DNA of 42,860 nt from Bacillota bacterium (GTDB lineage Bacteria > Sysuimicrobiota > Sysuimicrobiia > Sysuimicrobiales > Segetimicrobiaceae). A program made the position numbers and the translations under genes. Shown here one piece after another: positions 1-14,916 of the stretch. Within the stretch, counting starts at the first letter, position 1, and the number at the start of each line of letters is the position of its first letter. The DNA lies in assembly GCA_021324255.1 (NCBI GenBank), contig JAJPJL010000074.1:1-42860 (forward strand), given 5' to 3'. The notes beneath the pieces were generated by a model, which worked only from the letters and a program-made list of their open reading frames with translations, was not told the DNA's origin and did not search any database.

Positions 1-486
1 CCGGCCGGAGAAGGTCGCCTTCCGGTCGCTCCACAGCACCCGCAGCGCGGCGACGAACTCGTCCATCATCTGGCCCCGGTTGTAGGTGCCGAGATCGCCC
101 CGCACTCTGCGGAAGTCGTCCAACGAGCCGCCGAGCCCGATGCCGAGGGTGATCCGTCCCCCGGACAGCACGTCCAGGGTCGCCACTTGGCGGTTCAGGA
201 GTATCGGATGGTGATGCGGCAACACGATGGTGCTGGTCACAAACCGGATCCGGCGCGTCAGCGCGGCCAGATAGCCGATCGTCACCAGCGGGTCGTAGTA
301 GTTCGGCGGGTCGTCGAACCGCTCGGCGACGCGGGGCTCCGTTTCCAGAAATTCGTTGAGCCACAGCGAGTGATAACCCAGCGCGTCCGCGGCGGCGGCG
401 ACCTCGCGCATCCAGGCGCCGTCGACCGAGCGGATCGGATTGAGCCGGCCTTCCCGGCAGTTGGGCACGCCCGTGCTGAATTTCAT
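1..486 (-). CDS. LLM-class flavin-dependent oxidoreductase, C-terminus cut by window edge
   Basis: This is the first ~162 residues of a luciferase-like (bacterial luciferase/F420 superfamily) TIM-barrel oxidoreductase; the rest lies beyond base 1. The visible part starts MKFSTGVPNCREG and contains the family's strand segments, including RIRFVTSTIVLP near residue 77 and the conserved QVATLDVLSGGRITLGIGLG near residue 97. Such enzymes use FMN or F420 to oxidise or reduce small organic substrates in the cytoplasm. Its ATG (486-484) overlaps the stop of the preceding DUF3830 gene as ATGA, so it is the twelfth and last visible gene of the minus-strand operon. The N-terminal G-x-P-x-CREG signature recurs in the related gene at 14967-15980, marking both as one subfamily. 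Whether the cofactor is FMN or F420, and the substrate, cannot be told. Confidence 0.9.
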   Translation of the reverse strand, partial: MKFSTGVPNCREGRLNPIRSVDGAWMREVAAAADALGYHSLWLNEFLETEPRVAERFDDPPNYYDPLVTIGYLAALTRRIRFVTSTIVLPHHHPILLNRQVATLDVLSGGRITLGIGLGGSLDDFRRVRGDLGTYNRGQMMDEFVAALRVLWSDRKATFSGR

Positions 487-890
487 CCGATCCGCCGGAT
501 CGTGATCGTCTTGTCGCCCTCGTCGTGCATCCGGTCGAGCACCGCCAGCATCGCCGCCTGGTTCCGGACGAGGCGCGCGATGCGCGTGCCGTACTCCACC
601 CCGAGCACGGAGCGGTATTCCGCAGCGCCGTAGGCGACCAGCACTTCGCCCTTATCCGGACGCGCGATGAGGGTGCCCGGGTAGATCGAGCAGACGCGGT
701 GTTCCAGCCCGGTGACCGACCGGAGGCGCTCGACCGTGAACTCCGCCGCCCGTCCCGACCATTTCGTGTGCGTCAGCCGCGCCGTGAGCGGCAGCGCGTC
801 CCAAAACGAGGCCGTGGTCCGCGGCGCCCGGTCCTCCACCAGTTCCGCCTCGGCGACGACGCCGCCCACCTCGATCTCGATCTTCTTCAT
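483..890 (-). CDS. DUF3830 cyclophilin-like protein, copy 1
   Basis: This 135-residue protein belongs to the DUF3830 family, which has a cyclophilin-like beta-barrel fold and no established function. It starts MKKIEIEVGGVVAEAEL and shows the shared family pattern AP-x-T near residue 22, LP near 33 and H-x-KWSG near 40-46, then SIYPG, a GEVLVAYG strand and AEYR. The open frame continues upstream, but that part is a shadow of the neighbouring gene; the ATG at 890-888 overlaps the previous stop as ATGA. Its own TGA overlaps the next ATG in the same way. It is the third of three consecutive DUF3830 genes in transcription order and most resembles the first (1309-1746), sharing SIYPG, RP and YG-x-AEYR. 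No signal peptide is visible, so it is probably cytoplasmic. Confidence 0.85.
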   Translation of the reverse strand: MKKIEIEVGGVVAEAELVEDRAPRTTASFWDALPLTARLTHTKWSGRAAEFTVERLRSVTGLEHRVCSIYPGTLIARPDKGEVLVAYGAAEYRSVLGVEYGTRIARLVRNQAAMLAVLDRMHDEGDKTITIRRIG

Positions 891-1309
891 CGCTCCTCCT
901 CGCGCGCCAGCCGGATCGGCTTCCCGCCTTCGGCGCAGGTGGCTTTGACCTTGGCCAGAAACGCGCCCGCATCGCCCTCCAGCGTGCCGAGGTGGCAGGC
1001 CCAGGCGGCCGGGTGCGCGTGGTCGCGCGCCTGCGCCTGCCCGTAGCAGAACGCCATTTCGCCGTGTTCCGGCCGGAACGCCACGCCGGCGGGCGGGTAG
1101 AAGCTCACCATGTTCTCGATCGGCTGCGTCTTGTCCGCGAGCTTCGAAATGAGGATGTAGCCGGCCTCGCCGCTCCACCGTACGTGCCGCAGCGTCGCCT
1201 CGACCGGGAGCGCCGCCCAGAAGCGCCGGACCGTCTCCGGGGCGCTCTCCTCGTGCAACCGCGCCACCGCCACCACGCCGTCCAGCGTGATTCGCACCAG
1301 CTTCGCCAT
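887..1309 (-). CDS. DUF3830 cyclophilin-like protein, copy 2
   Basis: This is a 140-residue DUF3830 cyclophilin-like protein starting MAKLVRITLDGVVAVARL. It keeps the family core (AP-x-T, ALP, H-x-RWSG) but differs from its two neighbours: it has FYPPAGVAFRP followed by GEMAFCYGQAQARDHAHPAAWACHLG, giving a Cys- and His-rich middle instead of the YG-x-AEYR segment. The TGA at 889-887 overlaps the following ATG as ATGA, and the ATG at 1309-1307 shares one base with the preceding stop (TGATG), so the three paralogues are probably translationally coupled. The divergent middle suggests that the copies are specialised rather than redundant. No enzymatic residue can be assigned with confidence because the family has no known reaction. 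Confidence 0.82.
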   Translation of the reverse strand: MAKLVRITLDGVVAVARLHEESAPETVRRFWAALPVEATLRHVRWSGEAGYILISKLADKTQPIENMVSFYPPAGVAFRPEHGEMAFCYGQAQARDHAHPAAWACHLGTLEGDAGAFLAKVKATCAEGGKPIRLAREEER

Positions 1310-1746
1310 CACCGGCCCTCCGCCGCGCGGAGGCGAATCGTCGTCCGCCCCTTCACCGCGGTGGCCGCGAGCGCATCCAGCAGCGCGCGGGCTCCCGGCT
1401 CCAGTTCGCCCACCGGCGTGACCTGCCGCCGGCCGTCCGGCCAGCGGTACTCGGCGTCCCCGTAGGCAATCAGCAGCTCGGCGCCGGGCGCTCCCGGCGT
1501 CGGCGGCCGCACCGCCAGCACGCCCGGATAGATCGACACGACCGGCGACTCGAGAGCGCCGAGCGCGGCCATCGCGCCGCCCGAGACGTCCGCGAAGCAG
1601 GCGCTGCCCGACCACTTGCAGTGCTGGAGCGGGAGTTCCAGCGGCAGCGACTCGAGGAGCGCGGCCACCGTCTTGGGCGCGAGATCATCCCACAGCGTCA
1701 CCCGCGCCGATGCCCCTGCCACGGTCACTTCGATCGACTTGGCCAT
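1309..1746 (-). CDS. DUF3830 cyclophilin-like protein, copy 3
   Basis: This 145-residue DUF3830 protein is the first of the three tandem paralogues in transcription order. It starts MAKSIEVTVAGASARVTLWDD and carries APKTVAALLESLP and H-x-KWSG near residue 43, then SIYPGVLAVRP and ELLIAYGDAEYRWPDGR. Family knowledge is limited to a cyclophilin-like fold. It begins 34 bases after the stop of the binding protein at 1781-2617, the loosest spacing in this part of the operon, so the three copies and the luciferase-like gene that follows form a sub-block. The length fits the family (about 130-150 residues). The AYG-x-AEYR stretch is shared with copy 1 but not with copy 2 or the gene at 8674. Confidence 0.85.
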   Translation of the reverse strand: MAKSIEVTVAGASARVTLWDDLAPKTVAALLESLPLELPLQHCKWSGSACFADVSGGAMAALGALESPVVSIYPGVLAVRPPTPGAPGAELLIAYGDAEYRWPDGRRQVTPVGELEPGARALLDALAATAVKGRTTIRLRAAEGR

Positions 1747-1780: not shown

Positions 1781-2617
1781 CTACCCGCCGGTGCAGATCT
1801 GCCCGGGGCTCTTGAGCTCCGCGTCGTCCTCCGGCCCCAGGCCGTTGGCCTTGAGCGCCCGGAGCCACTCGCCGTTCTGATGCAGCTTCGTCAATTCGTC
1901 GTTCAGGGCCGCGGCCATCGCGCGGTTGTTGCAGTTGACGATGTTGTAGGCGATGTTCGACAGCACCGACTCGGGGAACCCGAAATCGCCCGGGTGCAGG
2001 TCGTGCGCGACGAGGCCGGGCGGCTGCTTGCCGCCGCGCCCGTTCACGTATCCCTGGACCTGGCCGTTGAGCAACGCTTGGATCGCCGATACCTCGTCCG
2101 GGAACAGCGCGGCGCCGGTGGCCGACCACTGTTGGAGATAGGGCGCCCACACGTATCCGATCACGGTCGCGATGCGCTTGCCCTCCATGCTCGCGGGCCC
2201 CGCGTACGGGAAGGACCGCAGCGTGAAGATGACCGCGCGGCTGAGGTAGAACGGGTATGTGTAGTATACGTGCTTCGCCCGCTCCTCCGTGTAGAAGACG
2301 CCCTCGCCGGCGTCCACCTTGCCTTGTTCGACCGCCAGGATCATCGACGGGAACGTCGTCTCGAACAGTTTGAGCCGCAGCCCGTGATCCCTGACGAACG
2401 CGTTGTAGAGCGCGCCGTCCATGCCCCCCAACGTGTCACCGGGGCCGACGATGATCTCGGGCGGCAGGGTTCCGTGCGTGGCCACGGTGAGATAGCCTGG
2501 GTTCACCAGATGCAGGCCCGCCGGCTGGGCCGCCGCACGCGGGCCGACGCCGCCGATCGCGCCCCACACGAGGAACAGGCACGCCAGCGCCCCGCTCGCG
2601 GTCCGCACCGGCGTCAT
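1781..2617 (-). CDS. ABC transporter substrate-binding protein, amino-acid type (family 3)
   Basis: This 278-residue periplasmic or lipid-free extracellular binding protein has an N-terminal signal peptide (MTPVRTASGALACLFLVWGAIGGVG, probable cleavage near AAA-QPAG). The mature part is a type II binding fold of family 3: GGMDGALYNAFVRDHGLRLKL, then VEQGKVDAGEGVFYTEERAK and YYTYPFYLSRAV, features seen in polar-amino-acid receptors. It would deliver a small solute to the permease pair at 5301-6663. The ATG at 2617 overlaps the stop of the FGD-like gene as ATGA; the longer open frame upstream is a shadow. It is a clear paralogue of the binding protein at 4427-5266 (shared VEQGKVD, HVYYTYPFY, VIGYVWA-YLQQ), so the importer has two receptors. 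The ligand is unknown. Confidence 0.9.
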   Translation of the reverse strand: MTPVRTASGALACLFLVWGAIGGVGPRAAAQPAGLHLVNPGYLTVATHGTLPPEIIVGPGDTLGGMDGALYNAFVRDHGLRLKLFETTFPSMILAVEQGKVDAGEGVFYTEERAKHVYYTYPFYLSRAVIFTLRSFPYAGPASMEGKRIATVIGYVWAPYLQQWSATGAALFPDEVSAIQALLNGQVQGYVNGRGGKQPPGLVAHDLHPGDFGFPESVLSNIAYNIVNCNNRAMAAALNDELTKLHQNGEWLRALKANGLGPEDDAELKSPGQICTGG

Positions 2618-3636
2618 CGCGCGGCCGCCTGTTCGCGCGCGGCCGCCGTTCGGAGGCGGGGGAGCACGTCTTCGCTGTACAGCTTGAGGAACCGCTTCTG
2701 GTCCGGGCCGGGCGCGTGGAAGATCAGGTGGGTGAACCCGAGCCGCAGGTACGGGCGGATGTGTTCGACCTGCTCGTCGGGATCGCTGGAGACGATCCAC
2801 CGGCTCGCCGCCCGCTCGAGCGGGAGCGCGTCGGCGCGCCGTTCCATCTCCACCGGGTCCTCGACGCCGACCTTCTCTTCCTGCGACAGGGCGAGTTGGG
2901 CCCAGTGGCGCGTGTCTTCGAACGCGCGCTTGCGGTCGTGATCGTACGAGACCTTCATCTCGATCGTCAGCTCGATGTCGGACAGGCTTCGTCCGGCCTT
3001 TTGCGCGCTTTCCTTCACCGCGGGCAGCAGCGTGTCGGCGTACAGCGCCATGCCCTTGCCGCTGGTGCAGATGAACCCCTCGGCGATCCGGCCCGCCAGC
3101 TTCGCCGCGGCCGGCCCCGAGGCGGCGACGTAGAGGGGCACCGGCTTGTCGGGCCGATCGTAGACCGTGGCGTTGGCCGTCCGGTAATAGGTGCCGTCGA
3201 ACGTGACCCGCTCCTGGGTCCAGAGGCGGCGGATCACCTCGATCGCCTCCCGGAACCGGGCGAACCGCTCCTTCTGCTCCGGCCACGTGATGCCGAGCGG
3301 CACCTCGTTCATGGACTCGCCCGTGCCGATCCCCAGCCAGACGCGACCGGGAAATAGGCAGGCGAGCGTTGCGGCGGCCTGCGCGACGATCGCAGGATGA
3401 TAGCGAAAGGTTGGGGTCACCACGCTCGTGCCCAGTGTGATGCGGCTCGTCCTCGCGCCGACCGCGCCGAGCCAGCTGAAGGAAAATGGCGCGTGTCCGC
3501 CAGTGTGACGCCACGGCTGGTAGTGATCGCTGATCGCGACGCTGTCAAAGCCGTACTCCTCCGCCGTGACGGCAAACTCCAGCAGATCTTGCGGGCCGAA
3601 CTGTTCCGCCGACGCCTTGTATCCGAACTTGATCAT
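2614..3636 (-). CDS. F420-dependent oxidoreductase of the glucose-6-phosphate dehydrogenase (FGD) family
   Basis: This 340-residue luciferase-fold enzyme aligns along its whole length with actinobacterial F420-dependent glucose-6-phosphate dehydrogenase (about 336 residues). Recalling FGD1, its catalytic His40, Trp44 and Glu109 correspond here to H38, W42 and E107 (SDHYQPWRH; GTGES), and its phosphate-binding Lys198, Lys259 and Arg283 to K194, K255 and R279 (CTSGKG; EEKVG; SRWIVSSDP). All six are present, so hydride transfer to F420 from a phosphorylated sugar or a similar substrate is plausible. It sits inside an amino-acid importer operon, 20 bases after the ATPase gene, and its stop overlaps the next ATG. 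A different substrate from glucose-6-phosphate cannot be excluded. Its presence implies that the host makes coenzyme F420. Confidence 0.9.
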   Translation of the reverse strand: MIKFGYKASAEQFGPQDLLEFAVTAEEYGFDSVAISDHYQPWRHTGGHAPFSFSWLGAVGARTSRITLGTSVVTPTFRYHPAIVAQAAATLACLFPGRVWLGIGTGESMNEVPLGITWPEQKERFARFREAIEVIRRLWTQERVTFDGTYYRTANATVYDRPDKPVPLYVAASGPAAAKLAGRIAEGFICTSGKGMALYADTLLPAVKESAQKAGRSLSDIELTIEMKVSYDHDRKRAFEDTRHWAQLALSQEEKVGVEDPVEMERRADALPLERAASRWIVSSDPDEQVEHIRPYLRLGFTHLIFHAPGPDQKRFLKLYSEDVLPRLRTAAAREQAAAR

Positions 3637-3656: not shown

Positions 3657-4427
3657 TTACCGCTTGACTCCGACCCGCAAGATGTCCCGTGTTCGCTGCG
3701 AGCGGGCCGCGGAGAACATCGTTTCCGCGGGGCCCTCTTCCACCACGGCTCCGCGCTCCATGACGACGATGCGATCGGCGACGTCCCGCGCGAAGCCGAG
3801 TTCGTGGGTCACGATGACCATGGTCATTCCTTCGTTGGCCAGCCGGCGCATCAATTCCAGGACTTCGTCCACCATCTCGGAGTCGAGCGCGGACGTCGGC
3901 TCGTCGAACAGGATCAGGTCGGGCTGCATGGCGAGCGCGCGGGCGATGGCGACGCGCTGCTTCTGGCCGCCGGAGAGCGTGCGCGGGTGCGCGTTGGCGA
4001 ACGCCTCGAGGCCGACGTGCCGCAGCAGCTGCAGCGCGCGGGCCTCGGCGGCGCTCCGGCCCTCATGCCGCACGTGCCGCGGCCCCAGCGTCAGGTTTTG
4101 CAGCGCCGTGAGATGCGGAAACAGTTCGAAGTGCTGGAACACCATGCCGATCCGGCTGCGGTATCCGCTTAACCCGACGCGCGCCCCGCCCGGCCAGCTG
4201 CCGATCTGTTCGCCCTTGTAGTACAGCTGCCCGCGCGTAGGCTCCACGAGCAGATTCAAGCACCGGAGCAGCGTGGTCTTGCCCGAACCGCTCGGCCCGA
4301 CGATGCATACTTTCTCGCCGCGCGCGACGCGGAAGTCGACGCCGTGCAACACTTCGCTGCGGCCGAAGCTCTTGTGGAGGTCGCGAAACTCCAGCAGCGA
4401 GCCGGCCGTCGCGGAGCCCTCCCGCAT
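3657..4427 (-). CDS. ABC transporter ATP-binding protein, polar amino-acid type
   Basis: This 256-residue cytoplasmic ATPase powers the importer formed with the permeases at 5301-6663. It has Walker A GPSGSGKTT (about residues 44-52), a Q-loop at MVFQHFELFP (~98), signature LSGGQKQR (151-158), Walker B LILFDEPTSALD (171-182) and the H-loop THE (~207). The FQHFELFPHLTALQN segment is typical of GlnQ/HisP-type amino-acid ATPases. The ATG at 4427-4425 shares one base with the stop of the upstream binding-protein gene (TGATG); the much longer open frame upstream is a shadow. It is the only ABC ATPase gene in the window, although two other importer gene sets (9205-12646 and 25973-29412) lack one. 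Confidence 0.93.
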   Translation of the reverse strand: MREGSATAGSLLEFRDLHKSFGRSEVLHGVDFRVARGEKVCIVGPSGSGKTTLLRCLNLLVEPTRGQLYYKGEQIGSWPGGARVGLSGYRSRIGMVFQHFELFPHLTALQNLTLGPRHVRHEGRSAAEARALQLLRHVGLEAFANAHPRTLSGGQKQRVAIARALAMQPDLILFDEPTSALDSEMVDEVLELMRRLANEGMTMVIVTHELGFARDVADRIVVMERGAVVEEGPAETMFSAARSQRTRDILRVGVKR

Positions 4428-5266
4428 CAGTGGCAGAGCTGCGGCGGCGCCTGCAGCGGCACGTCGCTGGCGGAGGTGAGTTTGTTCGCCGCGAGCACTT
4501 TGGCCCACTGGCCGGTCGTGTGCAGCTTCGTCATCTCGTCGTTGAGCGCCGCGGCCAACGGTTTGTTGTCGCATTTTACGAAATTGTACGCGGGCGTCGC
4601 GATCACCGACTCCGGGAAGCCGTAGTCCCCGGCCTTCAACAGGTGGGCCGCGACCCGCCCGTCGGCCTTGCTGAACACGGGGCCGTTGATGCTGTCGTCG
4701 CTGTTCACGTAGCCCTCGAGCTGTCCGTTGAGGAGCGCGGTCTCCGCGGCCGCGCTGTCGGGAAACAGCACAGCGGAGGAGCCGAAGGCCTGCTGCAGGT
4801 ACGTCGCCCACACATAGCCGATCACCGTGCCCACGCGCCTGCCCTTCAGGCTGTCGGGACCGGTGTAGGGAAACGTGCGCAGCGTGAACAGCGTAGCGCG
4901 TTCTTGGTAGAAGGGATAAGTGTAGTACACGTGCTGCGCGCGCTCGGGCTTGTAGTAGTAGTACGTGCCGACGTCGACCTTGCCTTGCTCCACGGCCAGG
5001 ATCACGGAGGCGAAGGTCGTCTGATACAGTTTCAGCTTCAGCCCCTGATCCCTGGCGAACGCGGTCAGGAGCGCGCCGTCGAGCGCGCCCAGCTGGTCGT
5101 TCGGGAGCACGACGAGTGCCGGCGGCGCCGACCCGTAGGTGGCCACGAGCAGAACGCCGGGTTGGACCAGCAGGTACGCGGGGGCGGGGCTTGCCGGGCC
5201 GCCCGCGGCCAGGATCAGGGGCGCACACAGCAGGAAGCACGCGAGCATCCTCGGAGCGCGTGTCAT
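4427..5266 (-). CDS. ABC transporter substrate-binding protein, amino-acid type, second receptor
   Basis: This 279-residue family 3 binding protein has a signal peptide (MTRAPRMLACFLLCAPLILAAGG). The mature part shows GALDGALLTAFARDQGLKLKL, VEQGKVDVGTYYYYKPERAQ, YYTYPFYQERATLFTLR and VIGYVWATYLQQ, matching its paralogue at 1781-2617. An in-frame ATG lies eight codons earlier, but a strong Shine-Dalgarno (AGGAGGGG) sits five to ten bases before the ATG at 5266, so that start is preferred. It ends TGATG into the ATPase gene. It is the receptor closest to the permeases, 34 bases after the permease stop. In the ligand region it has TYYYYKPERAQ where the paralogue has EGVFYTEERAK, suggesting different ligand preferences. 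Confidence 0.9.
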   Translation of the reverse strand: MTRAPRMLACFLLCAPLILAAGGPASPAPAYLLVQPGVLLVATYGSAPPALVVLPNDQLGALDGALLTAFARDQGLKLKLYQTTFASVILAVEQGKVDVGTYYYYKPERAQHVYYTYPFYQERATLFTLRTFPYTGPDSLKGRRVGTVIGYVWATYLQQAFGSSAVLFPDSAAAETALLNGQLEGYVNSDDSINGPVFSKADGRVAAHLLKAGDYGFPESVIATPAYNFVKCDNKPLAAALNDEMTKLHTTGQWAKVLAANKLTSASDVPLQAPPQLCH

Positions 5267-5300
5267 CGTCCCCTCCTGTCGTGATGGCATGCGATCGCCC

Positions 5301-5942
5301 TCACGAGTGCGCGTAGCTGCGCAGGCGGCGCTCCATCACCGCCACCGCCCGCGTCAGCGGCATCGTCACGACGACGTACAGGCCCATGATGATCGTCACG
5401 ACGAGCACGATCTCGCCGGTCCGGCTCATGGCGTTCTGACCGCGATACAGGATCTCCGGCGCCCCCACCGCCGCGGCGAGGGTCGCCGTCTTCAGCAGTC
5501 CCACGAACGAGTTCAGCAGCGGCGGCACCACGAAGGGAATCGTCTGCGGGACGACGACGCGCATCAACACCCCCATGCGGGACAGGCCGAGGCTGAATCC
5601 CGCCTCGCGCTGCGTCCACGGCACGGTCATGAAGCCTGCGCGGTAGTACTCTGCGGTAAACGCCGCGTCGGCGACGCCGAGCGCGAGGATCGCGGCCAGG
5701 ATCGAATTGATCTGGATGCCCACGGCGCCGAGGCCGAAGTACAACAGGTAGAGGATGACGAGCTGCGGCACCGACCGCAGCGTGATCGTGAGCGACGCCT
5801 GGAAAATTTTCACGGGCGCCAGGCCGAGATCCTGGAGGACGGCCAGGGCGAGTCCGAGCACGGCGCTCACCACCCACGCGCCGGATGCGATCTTGAGCGT
5901 CACGACGCCGCCCCGAAGCAGATCGGCAACCGTCGCGCTCAT
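5301..5942 (-). CDS. ABC transporter permease, polar amino-acid type (HisM/GlnP family)
   Basis: This 213-residue inner-membrane permease has about five hydrophobic helices. It carries the EAA loop contacting the ATPase: REAGFSLGLSRMGVLMRVVVPQTIPFVVPPL, with the conserved G spaced before the helix. FQASLTITLRSVPQLVILYLLYFGLG and the AAEYYRAGF-like segment (FTAEYYRAGF) are characteristic of amino-acid importers. A GTG three codons upstream is possible, but the ATG at 5942 has GAGGTG seven bases before it and starts ten bases after the previous stop, so it is preferred. With the product of 5953-6663 it would form the heterodimeric channel fed by the two binding proteins. Confidence 0.9.
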   Translation of the reverse strand: MSATVADLLRGGVVTLKIASGAWVVSAVLGLALAVLQDLGLAPVKIFQASLTITLRSVPQLVILYLLYFGLGAVGIQINSILAAILALGVADAAFTAEYYRAGFMTVPWTQREAGFSLGLSRMGVLMRVVVPQTIPFVVPPLLNSFVGLLKTATLAAAVGAPEILYRGQNAMSRTGEIVLVVTIIMGLYVVVTMPLTRAVAVMERRLRSYAHS

Positions 5943-5952
5943 CGGCGACACC

Positions 5953-6663
5953 TCAGGCGCCCGCCTGGGGGGCCAGGCGGGGTTCGGCCGCCCCCTGGGT
6001 TTCCTCGCCCATCCCCGCGCCGATCCCGAAGCGTCGCTCGAGCCAGCGAGCCAGCAGGCTGATCGGAAGGATCAGGATCAGGTAGAGCGCCGCCAGCACG
6101 AGGTACACCTGCATCGGCTCAAACGTCTGGGACACCAGGATCGTCGCCGTCAGCGTCACCTCGTTGACCGCGATCAGCGACGCGAGGGAGCTGTTCTTGA
6201 TGACGCCGATCAGCATGTTGAGGGTGCTCGGCACGCCCGGCGCGAGGACCTGGGGCAGGATCACGAGTCGAACGGTCGACGCCCAGCCGAGCCCGAGACT
6301 CGCCGCCGCCTCCCACTGCGTCTGCGGGATCGCCAGCAACGTGCCCCGGTACACCTCGGCCAGGTAGGCGGATTCGTTGATCGTCAGCGCGGCCACCGCC
6401 AGCCAGAACGCCGAGACGCCGAGCCCGGCCATGATGCGGCCCAGGCCGTAGTAGAAGAAGATGAGCAGGGCCAAGAGCGGGATGCTGCGCAGCAGGTCGT
6501 TGTAGAGGGCGGCCGCGACGCGCAGCGGCCGCCATTGGCTGATCGCGCAGAGCGAGAGCAGCGTGGACCACACGATCGTAAACAGCGTGGTGAACGCGGA
6601 GAGCTTGATCGTCACGATGAGGCCGCCTGCGAGGATGGCCAGCCAGGAGGCCAGTTGGCTCAT
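5953..6663 (-). CDS. ABC transporter permease, polar amino-acid type
   Basis: This 236-residue inner-membrane permease pairs with the one at 5301-5942. It starts MSQLASWLAILAGGLIVTIKLSAF, shows LLRSIPLLALLIFFYYGLG, and has the amino-acid-type segment NESAYLAEVYRGTLLAIPQTQWEAAASLGLGWASTVRLVILPQVL, which includes the EAA motif. The frame stays open 20 codons upstream, but the ATG at 6663 overlaps the stop of the amidohydrolase gene as ATGA, fixing the start. The C-terminus is a polar tail (ERRFGIGAGMGEETQGAAEPRL). Pairs like this import small polar amino acids or their derivatives. Confidence 0.9.
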   Translation of the reverse strand: MSQLASWLAILAGGLIVTIKLSAFTTLFTIVWSTLLSLCAISQWRPLRVAAALYNDLLRSIPLLALLIFFYYGLGRIMAGLGVSAFWLAVAALTINESAYLAEVYRGTLLAIPQTQWEAAASLGLGWASTVRLVILPQVLAPGVPSTLNMLIGVIKNSSLASLIAVNEVTLTATILVSQTFEPMQVYLVLAALYLILILPISLLARWLERRFGIGAGMGEETQGAAEPRLAPQAGA

Positions 6664-7487
6664 GTCACGCGACCGCCCCAGTCGTGCCCTGGACCCGGGA
6701 TGCCCGACACATGCGGGCTGCACCTCCGTGGCCGTCGTCGGCGCGGCGGCCCCGCGCCCGGTGGGGTCGACCGGCGCATCCCGCGCGGTCTGGGCCCCTG
6801 AGCGGGTCCTGGGCGCGGCGCGCGCCCGTCAGCCGCGGGCACACGGATACTCCGCAGCCACGTTTCGACGCCGGCGAGCGGGCGCACCCGCGCGTATTTT
6901 TGCGCCATGTCGAACAAGTTCAGGCGGTGGGGGGTGACGGCGCGGTCGAACACGCACTCCTCGACGACGATCACGCGGAACCGGTAGTCGTGCGCGTCCA
7001 CCACGGACGCCCGGACGCAGCCGCTCGTGGTGCAGCCGGCCACGAGCAGCGTGTCGGCGCCGAGGCCGATGAGATAGCCGGACAGGGGCGTGCCGAAGAA
7101 CGCGCTCGCGCCGGACTTCCGGTAGACCTGGTCGCCGCGATGCGGCGCGATCTCCCGCACGATGTCGGTCCCCATGCGCGCCTCGTGCCGCGTCGCCCCG
7201 GTCCGCCGCGGGAACCCGTGCGTGTACACGACCGGCACACCGCGCGAGCGCGCGACCCGCAGCAGCCTCGCGATCTTCGGGATGCTGCGCCACGCCGCCT
7301 CGCCACAGCTGTTCCGGAACTTGGCGATCGAGGCGAGAATCGGTTCGGGCTTGTCGCCCGTGAAATTGTACTCCATGTCGACGACGAGGACCGCGGGCCG
7401 CCGTCCCTCCGCCGGCAGCCGGCCGTAGCCCGCGCGCCGGTACACCTGCAATTCGTCGGCGCCCAGGAGTCCGTCCCACGCGTTCAT
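6660..7487 (-). CDS. Isochorismatase-family cysteine hydrolase (N-carbamoylsarcosine amidase-like)
   Basis: This 275-residue enzyme has the isochorismatase/cysteine-hydrolase fold with its Asp-Lys-Cys triad: D37 (VLVVDMEYNF), K124 (YRKSGASAFFGT) and C157 (GCTTSGCVRASVVDA). The Lys-to-Cys spacing of 33 equals that of N-carbamoylsarcosine amidase, and YTHGFPRR fits that branch, so hydrolysis of a carbamoyl or amide C-N bond is the best guess. It is the first structural gene after the GntR regulator, whose stop overlaps its ATG (7487-7485) as ATGA. It therefore probably opens or deaminates the imported compound. A basic, proline-rich tail of about 60 residues after position 215 is unusual for the family and may be disordered. 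The longer open frame upstream is a shadow. Confidence 0.88.
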   Translation of the reverse strand: MNAWDGLLGADELQVYRRAGYGRLPAEGRRPAVLVVDMEYNFTGDKPEPILASIAKFRNSCGEAAWRSIPKIARLLRVARSRGVPVVYTHGFPRRTGATRHEARMGTDIVREIAPHRGDQVYRKSGASAFFGTPLSGYLIGLGADTLLVAGCTTSGCVRASVVDAHDYRFRVIVVEECVFDRAVTPHRLNLFDMAQKYARVRPLAGVETWLRSIRVPAADGRAPRPGPAQGPRPRGMRRSTPPGAGPPRRRRPRRCSPHVSGIPGPGHDWGGRVT

Positions 7488-8200
7488 CGATGCACGAGAT
7501 CGAGACGCTGCGTCTGGTGGAGTTGCATGCGGACGAGCATCGCCTGGGTCATGTGCTCGCGCGCCAGCCGCTCGGCCTCGTCGGGATCGCGGCGCCGGAT
7601 GGCGGCGACAAGCGCCTCGTGTTCCTGGAGCGACCTGCGCGCTCGCGCCGGCTCCGCGAGCGAGTCGCGGCAGATCGGCCGCACGGCATCGTACAATCGC
7701 AGCACCTGCTCCGTCAGCCGCTTGTTGCGCGCCGTGCCGCACAGGAACTCGTGGAATCGCCCGTTCAGGGCCAGGAACCGTTCGATGTCGTTCTGCTCCG
7801 TGGCTTCGGCCATCTGGGCGCAGACGTTCTCTAAGATCACGAGTTCGCTCGGGGAGATCATCTGCGCGGACACGCGCGCGGCCGCGCCTTCCAGCGCGGC
7901 GCGCATCATGTAGATTTCCTCGATGTCTTTGAGGCTCAAGTCGGTGACGACGAGCCCCTGCCGGGGGACGTTCGTGAGGAATCCTTCGACCGTGAGCTGC
8001 CGGAGGGCCTCCCGCACCGGCGTCCGGCTCACCTGGAGGGTCTCCGCCAGCGCCCGCTCGTTCGTCACTGTCCCCGGGGGCAGCAGATTTCGGATGATCG
8101 CTTCGCGCAAGGTGTGATACACGGCTTCGCCGAGCGCCTTCGGTTTGGCGTGCTTGAGCCGCTCGGACGCCAGTTCTTGCAGCGCGTGCATGTCGAGCAT
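7484..8200 (-). CDS. GntR-family regulator, FCD (FadR-like) subfamily
   Basis: This 238-residue DNA-binding regulator heads the minus-strand operon. An N-terminal winged helix-turn-helix spans about residues 20-90, with recognition helix VSRTPVREALRQL. A C-terminal all-helical FCD ligand domain follows: DIEEIYMMRAALEGAAA, LNGRFHEFLCGTARNKRL and EHEALVAAIRRRDPDEAERLAREHM, carrying the histidines that usually hold a metal in this family. The aspartate normally before FH-x-x-L is Asn here (LNGRFH). Such proteins usually repress catabolic operons until a small acid binds. Its ATG follows a region holding a GGTAT-N8-ATACC repeat and a plausible promoter, consistent with autoregulation. It is similar to the second GntR gene at 12736-13500, especially across the HTH and PRQG wing. 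Confidence 0.92.
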   Translation of the reverse strand: MLDMHALQELASERLKHAKPKALGEAVYHTLREAIIRNLLPPGTVTNERALAETLQVSRTPVREALRQLTVEGFLTNVPRQGLVVTDLSLKDIEEIYMMRAALEGAAARVSAQMISPSELVILENVCAQMAEATEQNDIERFLALNGRFHEFLCGTARNKRLTEQVLRLYDAVRPICRDSLAEPARARRSLQEHEALVAAIRRRDPDEAERLAREHMTQAMLVRMQLHQTQRLDLVHR

Positions 8201-8673: not shown

Positions 8674-9093
8674 GTGCGCGAGATCACGATCGAGCTCGGC
8701 GGGATCAAGGCGGGTGGGGAGCTGTGGGACGAGCGCGCGCCGAAGACGGTGGCCGCGTTACTGGCGCACCTCCCCCTGGCCGATCGGACGATCCACGTGC
8801 GTTGGTCCGGCGCGGCGTGGCGCACGGAACAAAACTATCCCCTGCGGGTCGGGGACGTCGAGAACCGGGCCACGTGGTTGAATGTCGGCGACATCATCTA
8901 CTACGACGATCCTCGCTACGACCTGTACAAGGTGGCGTTCGTCTACGGCAAGAGCCAGTGGCGGGACGACCAAGGCGAGCTGTACGTCGCGCGCATCGGC
9001 AGGGTCACCGAGAATCTCGACGCGTTCGTCAAGGCAAGCGACGCGGTGTTGTTTCACGGCCCGCGGCCCGTCGTGATTCGCCTCGCTCCCTGA
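8674..9093 (+). CDS. DUF3830 cyclophilin-like protein, copy 4 (divergent operon)
   Basis: This 139-residue DUF3830 protein begins with GTG (MREITIELGGIKAGGELWDE) eight bases after GGAGACG. It retains APKTVAALLAHLP and IHVRWSG near residue 41-47 but then diverges from the three linked copies: it has WLNVGDIIYYDDPRYDLYKVAFVYGKSQWRDDQGELYVARIGRV. The GDI-x-YYDDP segment is closer to what I recall of typical stand-alone DUF3830 proteins. The function of the family is unknown beyond its cyclophilin-like fold. It is the first gene of the plus-strand unit and precedes a peptide-type ABC importer by 111 bases, so a DUF3830 gene accompanies both the importer operons that meet at this divergent promoter. 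Confidence 0.85.
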   Translation: MREITIELGGIKAGGELWDERAPKTVAALLAHLPLADRTIHVRWSGAAWRTEQNYPLRVGDVENRATWLNVGDIIYYDDPRYDLYKVAFVYGKSQWRDDQGELYVARIGRVTENLDAFVKASDAVLFHGPRPVVIRLAP

Positions 9094-9204
9094 ACCGGCG
9101 GGAGCGGGGCGGCCGCCATGGGGCCGGGAGAGGATTCGGCACCGCGGGCGTCGCGCCCCCGGCTCGACACCCGCGGAGATGCGAGTGGACGAGGAGGGAG
9201 AGCG

Positions 9205-10818
9205 ATGCAGCGAAGGCGTCCTCGAGCCGATTCCTTGCACCCGCCGGCGTCCGGTGCCCGCCGGCGACGCCTGACGCGCCGGGACCTGCTGCGGACGAGC
9301 GCCGCGGTGGGGCTTGGGGTCGCGCTGGGCCGGTACGCCGCCGGGGCGCCGGCCGCGTGCGGCGCGGCGGCGCCGCAGCCGGGCGGAACGCTCCGCGTGG
9401 GAGCCGTCGCGGACGTCCACACGCTCGATCCACACTACTCCGTCGATTGGTCCGAGCGCCCCGTGATGTACGCGCTCTACAACACGCTGGTGTCCGCGAC
9501 GCCGACGTTTGAGATCGCCCCGGAGCTGGCCCGGTCCTGGAAAGTCTCGCCGGACGGCCGGTCCATCACGGTCTCGCTCGCGCCCAACGTCAGATTTCAT
9601 GACGGGACCGCGTGCGACGCGGCGGCGGTCAAATGGAACATCGACTTTATCTTGAATCCGGCGAACAACTCGCCCCAGTTCAAACAGCTGGATCCGTTCC
9701 TCGCCGGCGTGGACGCGAGCGGGCCCACGACGGCGACGTTCCGGCTCAAGAAGCCGTACGCCGGGTTCCTCGCGGCCTTCACCGAGCGCCCGGGATTCAT
9801 CGTCTCCCCGGCCGCCTACCAAAAGTACGGGAAGGACTTTGGGCGGACCCCGGTGGGCAGCGGGATGTACCAGTTCGTGGAGTGGCTGCCGGACGACCAC
9901 GTGGCAGTCAAGCGGTTCGACGGGTACTGGGGCACGAAGAGCTACCTCGACGGCATCACCTACAAGGTCGTCCCCGATCCCGCGGTCCGCGACACCATGG
10001 TGCGCACCGCCGAGATCGACATCACGAGCGAGCCGGACCCCAAAGACGTGCCCGTGCTGCAGCGGGCCCCCGGCGTGAAGGTGGTGAGCGAGAACCCCTC
10101 CGGCCACTGGTGGGGCATCCAGTGGCGCGTCGACCGGCCGCCCTTCAACAACAAGGCGCTCCGCCAGGCCATCGCGTACGGCGTGGACCGCGACGAGTTC
10201 GTGAAGATCATGCTCGGCGGGCGCGGGAGCGTGGCCAACGGGCCCACGCCGTCGATCGTGTGGTGGTACAACCCAACCGTGCGGGGGTACACGTACGACC
10301 CCGAGCGCGCCAAGCGGTTGCTGGCCGAGGCCGGATACCAAAAGGGATTCTCGGCGGAGTTTTCAACCGACAACACGCCCGTGGGGTTGCAGTTCGCCCA
10401 GTTGCTGCAGGCCCAGCTCAAGCGTCTGAACGTCACGCTCACGATCAACCCGGTGGACCCCTCGAACCTGTACCAGCAGGTCCTGCAGCAAAAGGTGAAC
10501 TGGACGCGGACGGATTGGACGCTGCGCGCCGACCCCGACGGCCTGCTGCGCATCCTCTTCTACACCGGCAACTACGCGAACTCCACCGGCTACTCGAACC
10601 CGACCGTGGACAAGCTCCTCGATCAGGCCAACTCCACGTACGACCGCAACGCCCGCAAGAAGCTGTACGCGGAGATCGAGCAGCAGGTGATCGACGACGC
10701 GCCGTACGTGTGGGTCTTCTACCCGTCGGAGGACGCGCCGATGCGCACGGCGGTCCAGAACTACGCCTGGATTCCCGATTCGGTGCCCCGGTATCGGAGC
10801 GTGTGGCTGGCGAAGTAA
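9205..10818 (+). CDS. ABC transporter substrate-binding protein, peptide/nickel type (family 5), Tat signal
   Basis: This 537-residue family 5 (DppA/OppA-like) extracellular receptor has a twin-arginine signal: RRRLTRRDLLRTSAAVGLGVALG. Mature segments include GGTLRVGAVADVHTLDPHYSV, the family signature VRFHDGTACDAAAVKWNIDFIL, and GSGMYQFVEWLPDDHVAVKRFDGYWG. Earlier in-frame codons exist from 9118, but the ATG at 9205 follows GGAGGGAG by five bases. It binds peptides, opines or other organic cations and passes them to the permeases that follow; the two genes are separated by only six bases. Export through Tat implies folding before secretion. The ligand is unknown. Confidence 0.92.
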   Translation: MQRRRPRADSLHPPASGARRRRLTRRDLLRTSAAVGLGVALGRYAAGAPAACGAAAPQPGGTLRVGAVADVHTLDPHYSVDWSERPVMYALYNTLVSATPTFEIAPELARSWKVSPDGRSITVSLAPNVRFHDGTACDAAAVKWNIDFILNPANNSPQFKQLDPFLAGVDASGPTTATFRLKKPYAGFLAAFTERPGFIVSPAAYQKYGKDFGRTPVGSGMYQFVEWLPDDHVAVKRFDGYWGTKSYLDGITYKVVPDPAVRDTMVRTAEIDITSEPDPKDVPVLQRAPGVKVVSENPSGHWWGIQWRVDRPPFNNKALRQAIAYGVDRDEFVKIMLGGRGSVANGPTPSIVWWYNPTVRGYTYDPERAKRLLAEAGYQKGFSAEFSTDNTPVGLQFAQLLQAQLKRLNVTLTINPVDPSNLYQQVLQQKVNWTRTDWTLRADPDGLLRILFYTGNYANSTGYSNPTVDKLLDQANSTYDRNARKKLYAEIEQQVIDDAPYVWVFYPSEDAPMRTAVQNYAWIPDSVPRYRSVWLAK

Positions 10819-10824
10819 CCGCGC

Positions 10825-11769
10825 GTGTGGCGGTACATCGTCGCCCGGATCGCCGCCGTCATCCCGATGACGGTGCTGGTCACGATGGCGGTGTTTTGGC
10901 TCTTGCACGGGCTCCTTGGGGATCCGACGCTCCTCATCCTCGGCCGGGATGCGGACCCGCAGACGGCGGCGAGGCTGCGGCATGAACTCGGCCTGGACCG
11001 CCCGCTGGACGCGCAGTACCTCGCCTGGCTCAGCGGCGCGGCGCGCGGCGATCTCGGCCGCTCGCTGCGGACGCGGCAGCCGGTGGCGCAGGCCATCCGC
11101 GAGCGGCTCGGGCCCACCGCGGAACTGACCCTCGCGTCGATGGCGCTGGCCGCCGCGGCGGCCCTGGTGCTGGGGACCGTCGCCGGCACGTGGTACGGAT
11201 CGGCGGCGGACTTCGGGGTGTCGAGCCTGTGCGTGATCGGCGTGACGCTGCCGAACTTCCTGCTCGGCATCAGCCTGATCCTCGTATTCGCCCTCACGCT
11301 CCGATGGGTCCCCAGCGGGGGCTTCGTCCCGCTCTTCCCGAACCCGGGCGCCAACCTCCGGCACATGGCGCTGCCGATCCTGACCCTGAGCGTCGCCTAC
11401 GTCGGCATCCTGAGCTTGGTGCTCAAATCCAGCCTCCGCGCCACGCTCGGCGCGCTCTACGTGCAGACGGCCAGAGCCAAGGGTCTCGTCGAACGCCGCG
11501 TGCTGGTCCGGCACGCGCTGCGGAACTCCCTGATCCCGGTGCTCAGCGTGCTCGGCATCGAGTTCGGCCGGCTCTTCGGCGGCGCCGTCGTGACCGAAAC
11601 CGTCTTTGCCCTCCCCGGGGTTGGCCGGCTGCTCGTGGACGCGATCTTGGGCCGCGACTTTCCCGTCGTGCAGGCCGTGGTCGTGCTGATGACGTTCGGG
11701 GTCCTGTGTGTCAATCTCGCCGTGGATCTCTCCTACGCCTGGCTCGATCCCCGCGTCTCGTATGGGTAA
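10825..11769 (+). CDS. ABC transporter permease, DppB/OppB type
   Basis: This 314-residue permease starts with GTG six bases after the receptor gene. Six membrane helices are apparent: helix 1 at MWRYIVARIAAVIPMTVLVTMAVFWLLHGLLGDP, then after the periplasmic loop GLDRPLDAQYLAWLSGAARGDLGRSL further helices. The EAA loop is RATLGALYVQTARAKGLVERRVLVRHALRNSLIPVL, as in DppB, and the end DLSYAWLDPRVSYG is also typical. It forms the transmembrane heterodimer with the product of 11762-12646, which it overlaps by eight bases. Import of a peptide-like solute is expected. Confidence 0.93.
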   Translation: MWRYIVARIAAVIPMTVLVTMAVFWLLHGLLGDPTLLILGRDADPQTAARLRHELGLDRPLDAQYLAWLSGAARGDLGRSLRTRQPVAQAIRERLGPTAELTLASMALAAAAALVLGTVAGTWYGSAADFGVSSLCVIGVTLPNFLLGISLILVFALTLRWVPSGGFVPLFPNPGANLRHMALPILTLSVAYVGILSLVLKSSLRATLGALYVQTARAKGLVERRVLVRHALRNSLIPVLSVLGIEFGRLFGGAVVTETVFALPGVGRLLVDAILGRDFPVVQAVVVLMTFGVLCVNLAVDLSYAWLDPRVSYG

Positions 11770-12646
11770 CCTCGAGGCGGCCCGCGGTGTGCTCGCGGGC
11801 CGGCCGGCGGCCCGCCCGCGATCCGCCCGGTGGCGCGTGCTCGGGCGGAATCGCGCGCTCGCGGCGGGCGCGGTGCTGAGCATCGCGATGACGATCGTGG
11901 CGGCCGGCGCGCCGGTGCTGGCCCCCTATGACCCGCTGGCGATCCATCCGAACCACACGCTGGAGGGCCCGACGCGGGCGTTTCCGCTCGGGACGGACGA
12001 CCTCGGCCGGGACAACCTCAGCCAGGATCTCTACGGGGCGCGGCTGTCGCTCGTGGTGGGCCTGGGCGCCGTCGCCCTCGGCATCCTGGGCGGCCTCCCA
12101 TGGGGTCTGGCGAGCGGCTTCTCCGGCGGACCGTCGGGGTATCTGCTCATGCGGCTGGCGGACCTCGTGCTCGTGTTCCCGTCGCTGGTGCTGGCGCTCG
12201 TGATTCGGGCCCTGCTGGGGGCGGGCGTCGGCAACGTCATCGTCGCGCTGGGCGCCACGATCATGCCCGCGCTGGCCCGCGTCGTTCGCGGCGAAGTGCT
12301 GGCGCTCCGGGAGCGCGACTTCATGATCGCCGCCGTCGCGGTGGGAGCGCGCGGCTCGCGGATTCTCGCCCGCCACGTCATTCCCAACGTGCTCGACCTC
12401 GTCGCCGTCCTCGGCGCGATCTACATGGGCGGGGCGATCCTGACGGAGGCGAGCCTGTCCTTTCTCGGCTTCGGGACGCCGCCGCCGGCGCCCAGCTGGG
12501 GCCGCATCCTGCAGGAAGGGTATTCGTACCTCGCGATCACGCCCTGGCCCTCGCTCGCGGCCGGGGTGGCGATTTTTCTGACGGTGCTCGGCTTCTACCT
12601 CGCGGGGGAAGGCGCCCGCCGGATCGTCCAGCGCGACCGCATGTAG
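11762..12646 (+). CDS. ABC transporter permease, DppC/OppC type
   Basis: This 294-residue permease pairs with the DppB-type gene upstream. It shows the family's N-terminal pattern (one helix, then APYDPLAIHPNHTLEGPTRAFPLGTDDLGRDNLSQDLYGARLSL), and an EAA loop VLALRERDFMIAAVAVGARGSRILARHVIPNVL, ending with ASLSFLGFGTPPPAPSWGRILQEG. The ATG at 11762 lies inside the last codons of the preceding gene (eight-base overlap), and the open frame further upstream is a shadow. No DppD/DppF ATPase genes follow; the next gene is a regulator. The importer must therefore borrow ATPases encoded elsewhere. Confidence 0.93.
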   Translation: MGNLEAARGVLAGRPAARPRSARWRVLGRNRALAAGAVLSIAMTIVAAGAPVLAPYDPLAIHPNHTLEGPTRAFPLGTDDLGRDNLSQDLYGARLSLVVGLGAVALGILGGLPWGLASGFSGGPSGYLLMRLADLVLVFPSLVLALVIRALLGAGVGNVIVALGATIMPALARVVRGEVLALRERDFMIAAVAVGARGSRILARHVIPNVLDLVAVLGAIYMGGAILTEASLSFLGFGTPPPAPSWGRILQEGYSYLAITPWPSLAAGVAIFLTVLGFYLAGEGARRIVQRDRM

Positions 12647-13737: not shown

Positions 13738-14916
13738 ATGTCCACGACCGAGAGGGCGGCGATCGGCGGCGCCGTGGCGCCGCTCGACACACGCGGGCCG
13801 GCGGCCGGTTCGGGCGCCGGGGCATTCGCGGAAGCGGCGCGCCAGCTCACGGTGTGCAATGCGTGCCGGTACTGCGAGGGGTACTGCGCCGTGTATCCGG
13901 CGCTCGAGCTCCGCCGGGCGCTGAGCCGCGGCGACGTCACCTACCTGGCCAACCTCTGCCACGATTGCCGCGCGTGCTACTACGCGTGCATGTACGCGCC
14001 GCCCCACGAGTTTGGGATCAACATTCCGCAGGCGCTCGCCGAAGTGCGGCACGCCGGTTACCAGAGGCACGCCCGGCCGCGGGCCGGTGCGGGATTGTTC
14101 GCCGCGATGCCGGAGGCGCTCGCGGCCGGCGCCGTGGCCGCCGTCGTGGTGGGACTCGCCCTGTGGCTGGTCGGCCCCGCGCGGATGCTCACGGCCCAAC
14201 GCGGCGCCGGCGCCTTCTACCGGATCGTGCCATACTGGGCGATCGTGATCCCCGGGCTGGCCCTGTGCTGCTACTGGCTCGGCGTCTGGGCGGCCGGAGC
14301 GCGCGTGTTCTGGCGCGACATCGAGATGCGGGGCCGGGCGCCGTCTGCGGGCGCCGCGATGGGAGCGGCCTGGGATGTCCTGGTGCTGCGGTGGCTTCGC
14401 GGGGGCGGGCCCGGATGCCCGTACCCGGACGAGCACCCGTCGCGTACGCGCGCGCTTCTCCACAGCCTCGTGTTCTACGGCTTTCTGGCCGCCACGGCTT
14501 CCACCACGATCGCCGCGATCGATCAGGACCTATTGGGGCGGCTTCCCCCGTATGCGCTGACGAGCGCCCCGGTCATCCTGGGCACGGCCGGCGGGGTGGC
14601 GATGATCCTCGGGACGGTGGGCATGCTCATCGCCAAGGGACGGAGTGACCGGCAACCGGCCTCGGGCGCGATGACCGGCATGGAGTTCGTGTTCGTGCTC
14701 ACGCTCGGGCTGGCGTCTCTGACCGGCTTGCTCACGTTGGCGCTGCGGAGCACGGGCGTCTTGGGCCCGGCCCTCGTCATTCACCTCGCGATCGTCGCCG
14801 CGCTGTTCGTGACGGCGCCGTACGGCAAGTTCGTTCACGCGATCTACCGGTACCTCGCTCTGGTGCGCCGCCGGATGGAACAGGACGGAGACGGTCGCCC
14901 CGCCGCCGAGCTGTGA
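13738..14916 (+). CDS. tcuB: TcuB-like iron-sulfur/membrane electron-transfer protein
   Basis: This 392-residue protein resembles TcuB/CobZ-C, which re-oxidises the flavoprotein TcuA during tricarballylate breakdown and passes electrons to the membrane. Two cysteine clusters, C40-x2-C43-x2-C46-x3-C50 and C74-x2-C77-x2-C80-x3-C84, should hold two 4Fe-4S centres. They are followed by about six hydrophobic helices (from residue ~125 onward) and HAGYQRHARPR. The ATG at 13738 has no clear Shine-Dalgarno. TcuA is not adjacent here: the preceding gene is a GntR regulator and the next is a convergent luciferase-like oxidoreductase. The protein may therefore serve another flavoprotein partner, such as the dehydrogenases of this island, or a distant tcuA. 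Confidence 0.82.
   Translation: MSTTERAAIGGAVAPLDTRGPAAGSGAGAFAEAARQLTVCNACRYCEGYCAVYPALELRRALSRGDVTYLANLCHDCRACYYACMYAPPHEFGINIPQALAEVRHAGYQRHARPRAGAGLFAAMPEALAAGAVAAVVVGLALWLVGPARMLTAQRGAGAFYRIVPYWAIVIPGLALCCYWLGVWAAGARVFWRDIEMRGRAPSAGAAMGAAWDVLVLRWLRGGGPGCPYPDEHPSRTRALLHSLVFYGFLAATASTTIAAIDQDLLGRLPPYALTSAPVILGTAGGVAMILGTVGMLIAKGRSDRQPASGAMTGMEFVFVLTLGLASLTGLLTLALRSTGVLGPALVIHLAIVAALFVTAPYGKFVHAIYRYLALVRRRMEQDGDGRPAAEL

Follow-up and report, generated by a model that had tools for sequence, protein, structure and literature searches.

DUF3830 (PF12903) is a known protein family with a solved structure (3kop, from Arthrobacter sp. FB24) and no assigned function; in the open literature, we found no paper naming the family and nothing direct on a link between cyclophilin-like proteins of this kind and hydantoins or ureides. 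Its nearest functionally known relatives are the Pictet-Spenglerases KslB and McbB (Pictet-Spenglerase/cucumopine synthase family), single chains of about 300 amino acids that catalyse the condensation of an amine and an oxo compound. The active site of McbB, which we take to include Arg72, His87, and Glu97, would lie in the DUF3830-like half. A further parallel is offered by 5-oxoprolinase (PxpB/PxpC) and urea amidolyase (AHS1/AHS2), which open a cyclic amide or process urea with two cyclophilin-like partners whose genes are adjacent and in many cases overlap or are fused. This parallel is an analogy only. PxpB/AHS1 were absent from the structure and sequence matches found, although their absence among the structures does not rule them out. 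Solitary DUF3830 members keep the motifs HVRWSGE, ENHTS, SETEIL, and GNHF, whereas the proteins described here keep only part of them and are encoded as a coupled triplet. It is such multi-gene sets, together with gene fusions, that are new for the family.

The window, i.e. the whole stretch of 42,860 nucleotides that was analysed, begins at a contig end and contains the following genes around the triplet:

1-486, minus strand: start of a gene for an F420-type LLM oxidoreductase, which extends past the end of this contig and continues in contig C65; its orthologue fits TIGR03619 above the cut-off
483-890, minus strand: D3, third DUF3830 gene (135 aa; HTKWSG, SIYPG, YGAAEYR; PF12903, 47.3 bits)
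887-1309, minus strand: D2, second DUF3830 gene (140 aa; HVRWSG, Cys/His-rich stretch found only in the window; PF12903, 51.2 bits)
1309-1746, minus strand: D1, first DUF3830 gene (145 aa; HCKWSG, SIYPG, YGDAEYR; PF12903, 35.8 bits)
1781-2623, minus strand: SBP_bac_3 substrate-binding protein, 34 bp upstream of D1 (PF00497, 59.3 bits)
2614-3636, minus strand: F420-dependent LLM oxidoreductase of the F420 glucose-6-phosphate dehydrogenase family (TIGR03554, 497 bits, cut-off 420)
3657-4370, minus strand: ABC transporter ATPase of the polar amino-acid type (PF00005, 128.5 bits)
4427-5290, minus strand: second SBP_bac_3 substrate-binding protein (PF00497, 52.9 bits)
5301-5951 and 5953-6723, minus strand: two ABC permeases (PF00528)
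6660-7487, minus strand: isochorismatase-family hydrolase (PF00857, 103.9 bits), resembling biuret hydrolase/RutB but scoring far below those NCBIfam cut-offs
7484-8200, minus strand: GntR/FCD regulator (PF07729, PF00392)
8674-9093, plus strand: fourth, separate and divergent DUF3830 gene (PF12903, 52.8 bits), assigned to the S clade by the tree
9118-12646, plus strand: SBP_bac_5 binding protein and OppB/OppC permeases (Pfam) of a peptide-type ABC importer, downstream of the fourth DUF3830 gene

Thus, the triplet is preceded in the same direction by genes for a regulator, a hydrolase, permeases, an ATPase, binding proteins, and an LLM oxidoreductase and is followed by another LLM gene. CofE is encoded in the genome, so the source organism plausibly makes F420. 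Further along, an ORF of 392 codons (13738-14916, plus strand) has a coding-like base composition and is without a Pfam match.

The preliminary description of three consecutive DUF3830 genes overlapping by one to four bases was borne out: all three, and the fourth copy, which that description had left out, exceed the curated PF12903 cut-off of 26 bits. D1 and D2 share 1 bp (TGATG), and D2 and D3 share 4 bp (ATGA). Each of the three starts is preceded by its own GGAGG-like ribosome-binding site. The motifs AP-x-T, LP, and H-x-(K/R)-W-S-G were found in all three proteins, and SIYPG and YG-x-AEYR in D1 and D3, as had been reported from the sequence; in the tree, D1 and D3 are sister branches (support 99/89). 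Of the core motifs of solitary members (HxRWSG, ENxxS, SETEIL, and GNHF, a set derived here from ten plasmid-borne members and not by Pfam), D1 to D3 keep HxxWSG and part of ENxxS and have lost SETEIL and GNHF. Their membership in the family rests on the profile match, and the loss of SETEIL and GNHF argues for a changed activity and not against membership. D2 additionally matches PF04126 (Cyclophil_like/DUF369) just above the cut-off; the DUF3830 match is the stronger one for each of the three. The window does contain the Cys/His-rich segment noted in D2. In the single orthologue, however, it is only partially retained (FCYG to FSYG, HAH to HVR, ATC to ATR), and a metal site was rejected for this reason.

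The phylum comprised 43 genomes, of which ten contained DUF3830 and two the window triplet. The second of these (Centralia_MAG_233, of the same genus, G001 below) encodes three orthologues with identical order and identical lengths of both overlaps; a set retained in this way at the orthologous locus is not due to chance. D1 and D2 are 88% and 76% identical to their counterparts in G001, with dN/dS values of 0.13 and 0.30, respectively, and for D3 the value is 0.23; all three genes are under purifying selection. The triplet's restriction to 2 of the 43 genomes would fit a functionally meaningless by-product of duplication at an unstable locus, but purifying selection on each copy with dN/dS well below 1, the conserved overlaps, and long internal branches that place the D1/D2/D3 divergence well before the two species largely refute this explanation, which we consider highly improbable. 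In agreement, a clade consisting of only the three copies of the source genome (G000), with G001 left out, was rejected by the AU test (p-AU 0.0002). A recent local triplication without conservation in relatives, the case against which the phylogeny had been proposed as a check, is rejected by this test and by the dN/dS values of the comparison with G001. The earlier view of diverged, coupled paralogues can thus be extended: their set is old, has been maintained, and is passed on as a unit. As D1 to D3 form a clade of their own with moderate support (98/93 and 94/92 in two trees), the triplication is lineage-specific, yet far older than the split of the two species. Two other groupings were not firmly excluded by AU tests, namely D2 with S (p 0.18) and all fused domains together (p 0.06). 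Beyond the phylum, a contig scan with D1/D3 peptide patterns retrieved only Centralia_MAG_233, on G001's own contig; the patterns were exact short motifs, which distant triplets may escape.

The statement that DUF3830 usually occurs as single genes holds outside the phylum, where copies are solitary or distant in 36 of 38 plasmid records, but not within the lineage: when the source genome is counted together with its relatives, another DUF3830 copy lies on the same strand no more than 150 bp away for 60 of 73 domains, and sets are the rule. The coupling of DUF3830 copies is real and wider than first described. A second triplet, alpha-beta-gamma, is present in six genomes of the family with one orthologue per position, conserved order, and ATGA overlaps in several; alpha and gamma orthologues are also present in another family. 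In the source genome, this independent triplet lies on contig C14 (L062, 3352-4812, plus strand); an F420-type LLM gene follows immediately downstream, and an allantoinase-like gene is located at a distance of 8 kb. In addition, two-domain DUF3830 ORFs of 289 to 301 codons were found at eight loci. They are of two fusion types, always in the order P1 then P2; in other cases, P1 and P2 are encoded by two adjacent genes. One fused P1-P2 protein, of 290 amino acids, is encoded on contig C65 of the source genome (L010, 5365-6237, minus strand) and is conserved in six genomes; the second fusion type is found in two (L056, L057). The P2 clade is well supported, P1 less securely so (97/84 in one tree, 76/37 in another), and a gene of the S type often directly follows the fused gene. 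Fixed positions and gene fusion are the usual genomic signs of a physical partnership.

Members of these sets have lost different parts of the HxxWSG core. Fused P1 keeps the histidine but has lost the tryptophan, P2 keeps KWSG but has lost the histidine (in the second fusion type, WSG is altered as well), and gamma has lost WSG. The losses are complementary to each other. On this basis, we propose that D1, D2, and D3 are coupled subunits of one hetero-oligomer of cyclophilin-like DUF3830 domains, which would bind or convert a cyclic nitrogen compound delivered by the adjacent importer; we give this proposal about an even chance of being correct. It draws on the age and maintenance of the triplet described above, on the prevalence of sets in the lineage, including alpha-beta-gamma in six genomes, on the P1-P2 fusions at eight loci with P1 and P2 elsewhere as separate neighbours, and on the complementary decay of the core. 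Against it stand the occurrence of the window triplet in two species of one genus only, fusions known only from the sister set P1-P2 and none of D1, D2, or D3, and the NMR structure of TM1367, which hints at a monomer. The main rival, somewhat improbable in our judgement but to be taken seriously, is that each of the three genes encodes a homo-oligomeric enzyme or binding protein of its own, serving one of three related substrates or one of several successive steps, and that the genes are united in one operon for co-expression. The full HxxWSG core in D1, D2, and D3 and their individual evolutionary rates are in line with it, unrelated genes overlap here too (D3 and the following LLM gene by 4 bp, ATGA), and DUF3830 genes that occur alone elsewhere clearly function in the absence of paralogues. 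The sister systems of the same genomes are, however, inherited as fixed pairs or triplets, with one pair fused, and the tendency to lose core residues in one member per set fits a partnership better.

Nearly every set in the lineage adjoins ABC importer genes, and three importer-type binding-protein families (f3, f10, and f13) recur beside them. This recurrence would also be expected if DUF3830 proteins were non-catalytic small-molecule carriers or chaperones of imported compounds, with a copy number following that of the importers, and the loss of GNHF and SETEIL from D1 to D3 is compatible with such a role. Solitary members are nevertheless located with intracellular ring hydrolases, and the Pictet-Spenglerases are enzymes; a carrier role is therefore regarded as distinctly unlikely.

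Among the 20 annotated plasmid loci, 18 contained a dihydropyrimidinase, hydantoinase, allantoinase, other cyclic-amide hydrolase, or Zn-dependent carbamoylase within 6 to 9 kb of DUF3830, a count that is based on annotation and co-location and overstates the independent evidence because many of the plasmids come from related organisms. The two loci without such a gene nearby were from Thalassospira and Natronorubrum. On three haloarchaeal plasmids (L069, L077, L084), DUF3830 lies inside a urate-degradation cluster with uraD in all three and pucL and uraH in two; the ureidoglycolate lyase AllA was not found on any of them. In a review of Haloferax volcanii, such a purine pathway was termed 'highly speculative' (PMC8305020). 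The DUF3830 gene of Haladaptatus keeps the same company as the window triplet (LLM oxidoreductase, isochorismatase, and ABC importer). In a search of the plasmids alone, AllA was also absent from 18 of the 20 records. None of the 43 genomes of the phylum encodes it, whether DUF3830 is present or not, and its absence there does not discriminate; conversely, allantoinase is encoded in every genome of the phylum, which makes its co-occurrence with DUF3830 uninformative. Taken together, the neighbourhoods point to a putative role in the breakdown of cyclic ureides, hydantoins, or allantoin. No function is assigned to DUF3830, as the preliminary description had it, but the range is narrowed. For the window triplet, the ring-hydrolase and urate-degradation loci and the gene company in Haladaptatus suggest a cyclic nitrogen compound as substrate class; against this, no hydantoinase lies beside the triplet, and that association comes from other DUF3830 branches retaining GNHF, which is lost in D1 to D3. 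With the survey, a role of DUF3830 in the catabolism of cyclic ureides, hydantoins, and urate can be put to the test.

The two remaining plasmid records of the 38 are Paracoccus plasmids with a tandem DUF3830 pair (L075, 5504-6423; L086, 5502-6411); sets thus arose outside the phylum of the window, too. On the annotated P. pantotrophus plasmid, the pair is located beside allE and a gene for a Zn-dependent hydrolase. A solitary, gamma-like DUF3830 gene outside the phylum was observed in the unannotated record of a Rhizobium sp. SSA_523 plasmid (L085, 5893-6357).

A cyclophilin-like fold was confidently predicted for D3 (AF2 model, pLDDT 84, pTM 0.81). The best PDB match of the model was 3kop (Z 19.2, 1.9 Å over 135 residues), followed by the Pictet-Spenglerases KslB/McbB (Z 17.6-17.9), TM1367 (Z 14.4), and true cyclophilins (Z about 12, 8-13% identity). 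TM1367, a distant relative solved by NMR and crystallography, and AF2241 represent the Cyclophil_like/DUF369 family (PF04126), which has the same fold as D3. The D2 model showed the same order of elements at low confidence (pLDDT 68.5). A search with the DUF3830 profile likewise retrieved KslB (E 1.2e-4) and McbB (E 1.3e-3). D3 resembles the cyclophilin-like half of these enzymes; D1 to D3 are single domains of 135 to 145 amino acids without the other half, a helical bundle according to the PDB molecule name. Pro23, Pro34, Glu63, Gly88, and Gly125 were invariant across 30 DUF3830 members, and Glu63 is not conserved in KslB. The match to 3kop and then to the amine/oxo-condensing Pictet-Spenglerases counts in favour of the proposed reading and provides a chemistry to test.

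The proposed hetero-oligomer could have originated from a single-gene DUF3830 protein that was probably a homo-oligomer and whose duplicated copies specialised as subunits within one pseudo-symmetric particle. D1, D2, and D3 would be made by coupled translation and assembled into this particle, which may bind or convert a small cyclic nitrogen compound of the cyclic ureide, hydantoin, or cyclic-imine type. Uptake of the compound would fall to the ABC importer of the amino-acid type next to the triplet, and the isochorismatase-family hydrolase and the F420-dependent LLM oxidoreductases may act on it before or after the DUF3830 particle. Physical association of the subunits and its stoichiometry are inferred here, as are the substrate class and the reaction. 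The recurring DUF3830 pairs, triplets, and fusions would then represent a compact natural series leading from a single-gene protein to a hetero-oligomer with specialised subunits. A bolder and rather doubtful extension is that DUF3830 proteins are C-N bond-handling enzymes related to Pictet-Spenglerases, whose ancestor acted alone in ureide/hydantoin catabolism, e.g. as an unrecognised ureidoglycolate-type lyase, and which in the phylum repeatedly became obligate hetero-oligomers (D1-D2-D3, alpha-beta-gamma, and P1-P2 with S) with active sites shared by degenerate subunits.

At its start, the window overlaps contig C65 by 107 bases, and the LLM gene reads through as an ORF of 328 codons; C65 in turn overlaps C24 by 57 bases, with a DUF3830 gene reading through. 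From these overlaps, contigs C94, C65, and C24 appear contiguous. An assembly from the same genus is likewise interrupted at the DUF3830 gene of the C65/C24 join, probably as a result of repeated sequence among the paralogues. If the joins hold, 9 of the 12 DUF3830 domains of the genome would belong to one locus that also encodes several importers and an enzyme resembling ornithine cyclodeaminase.
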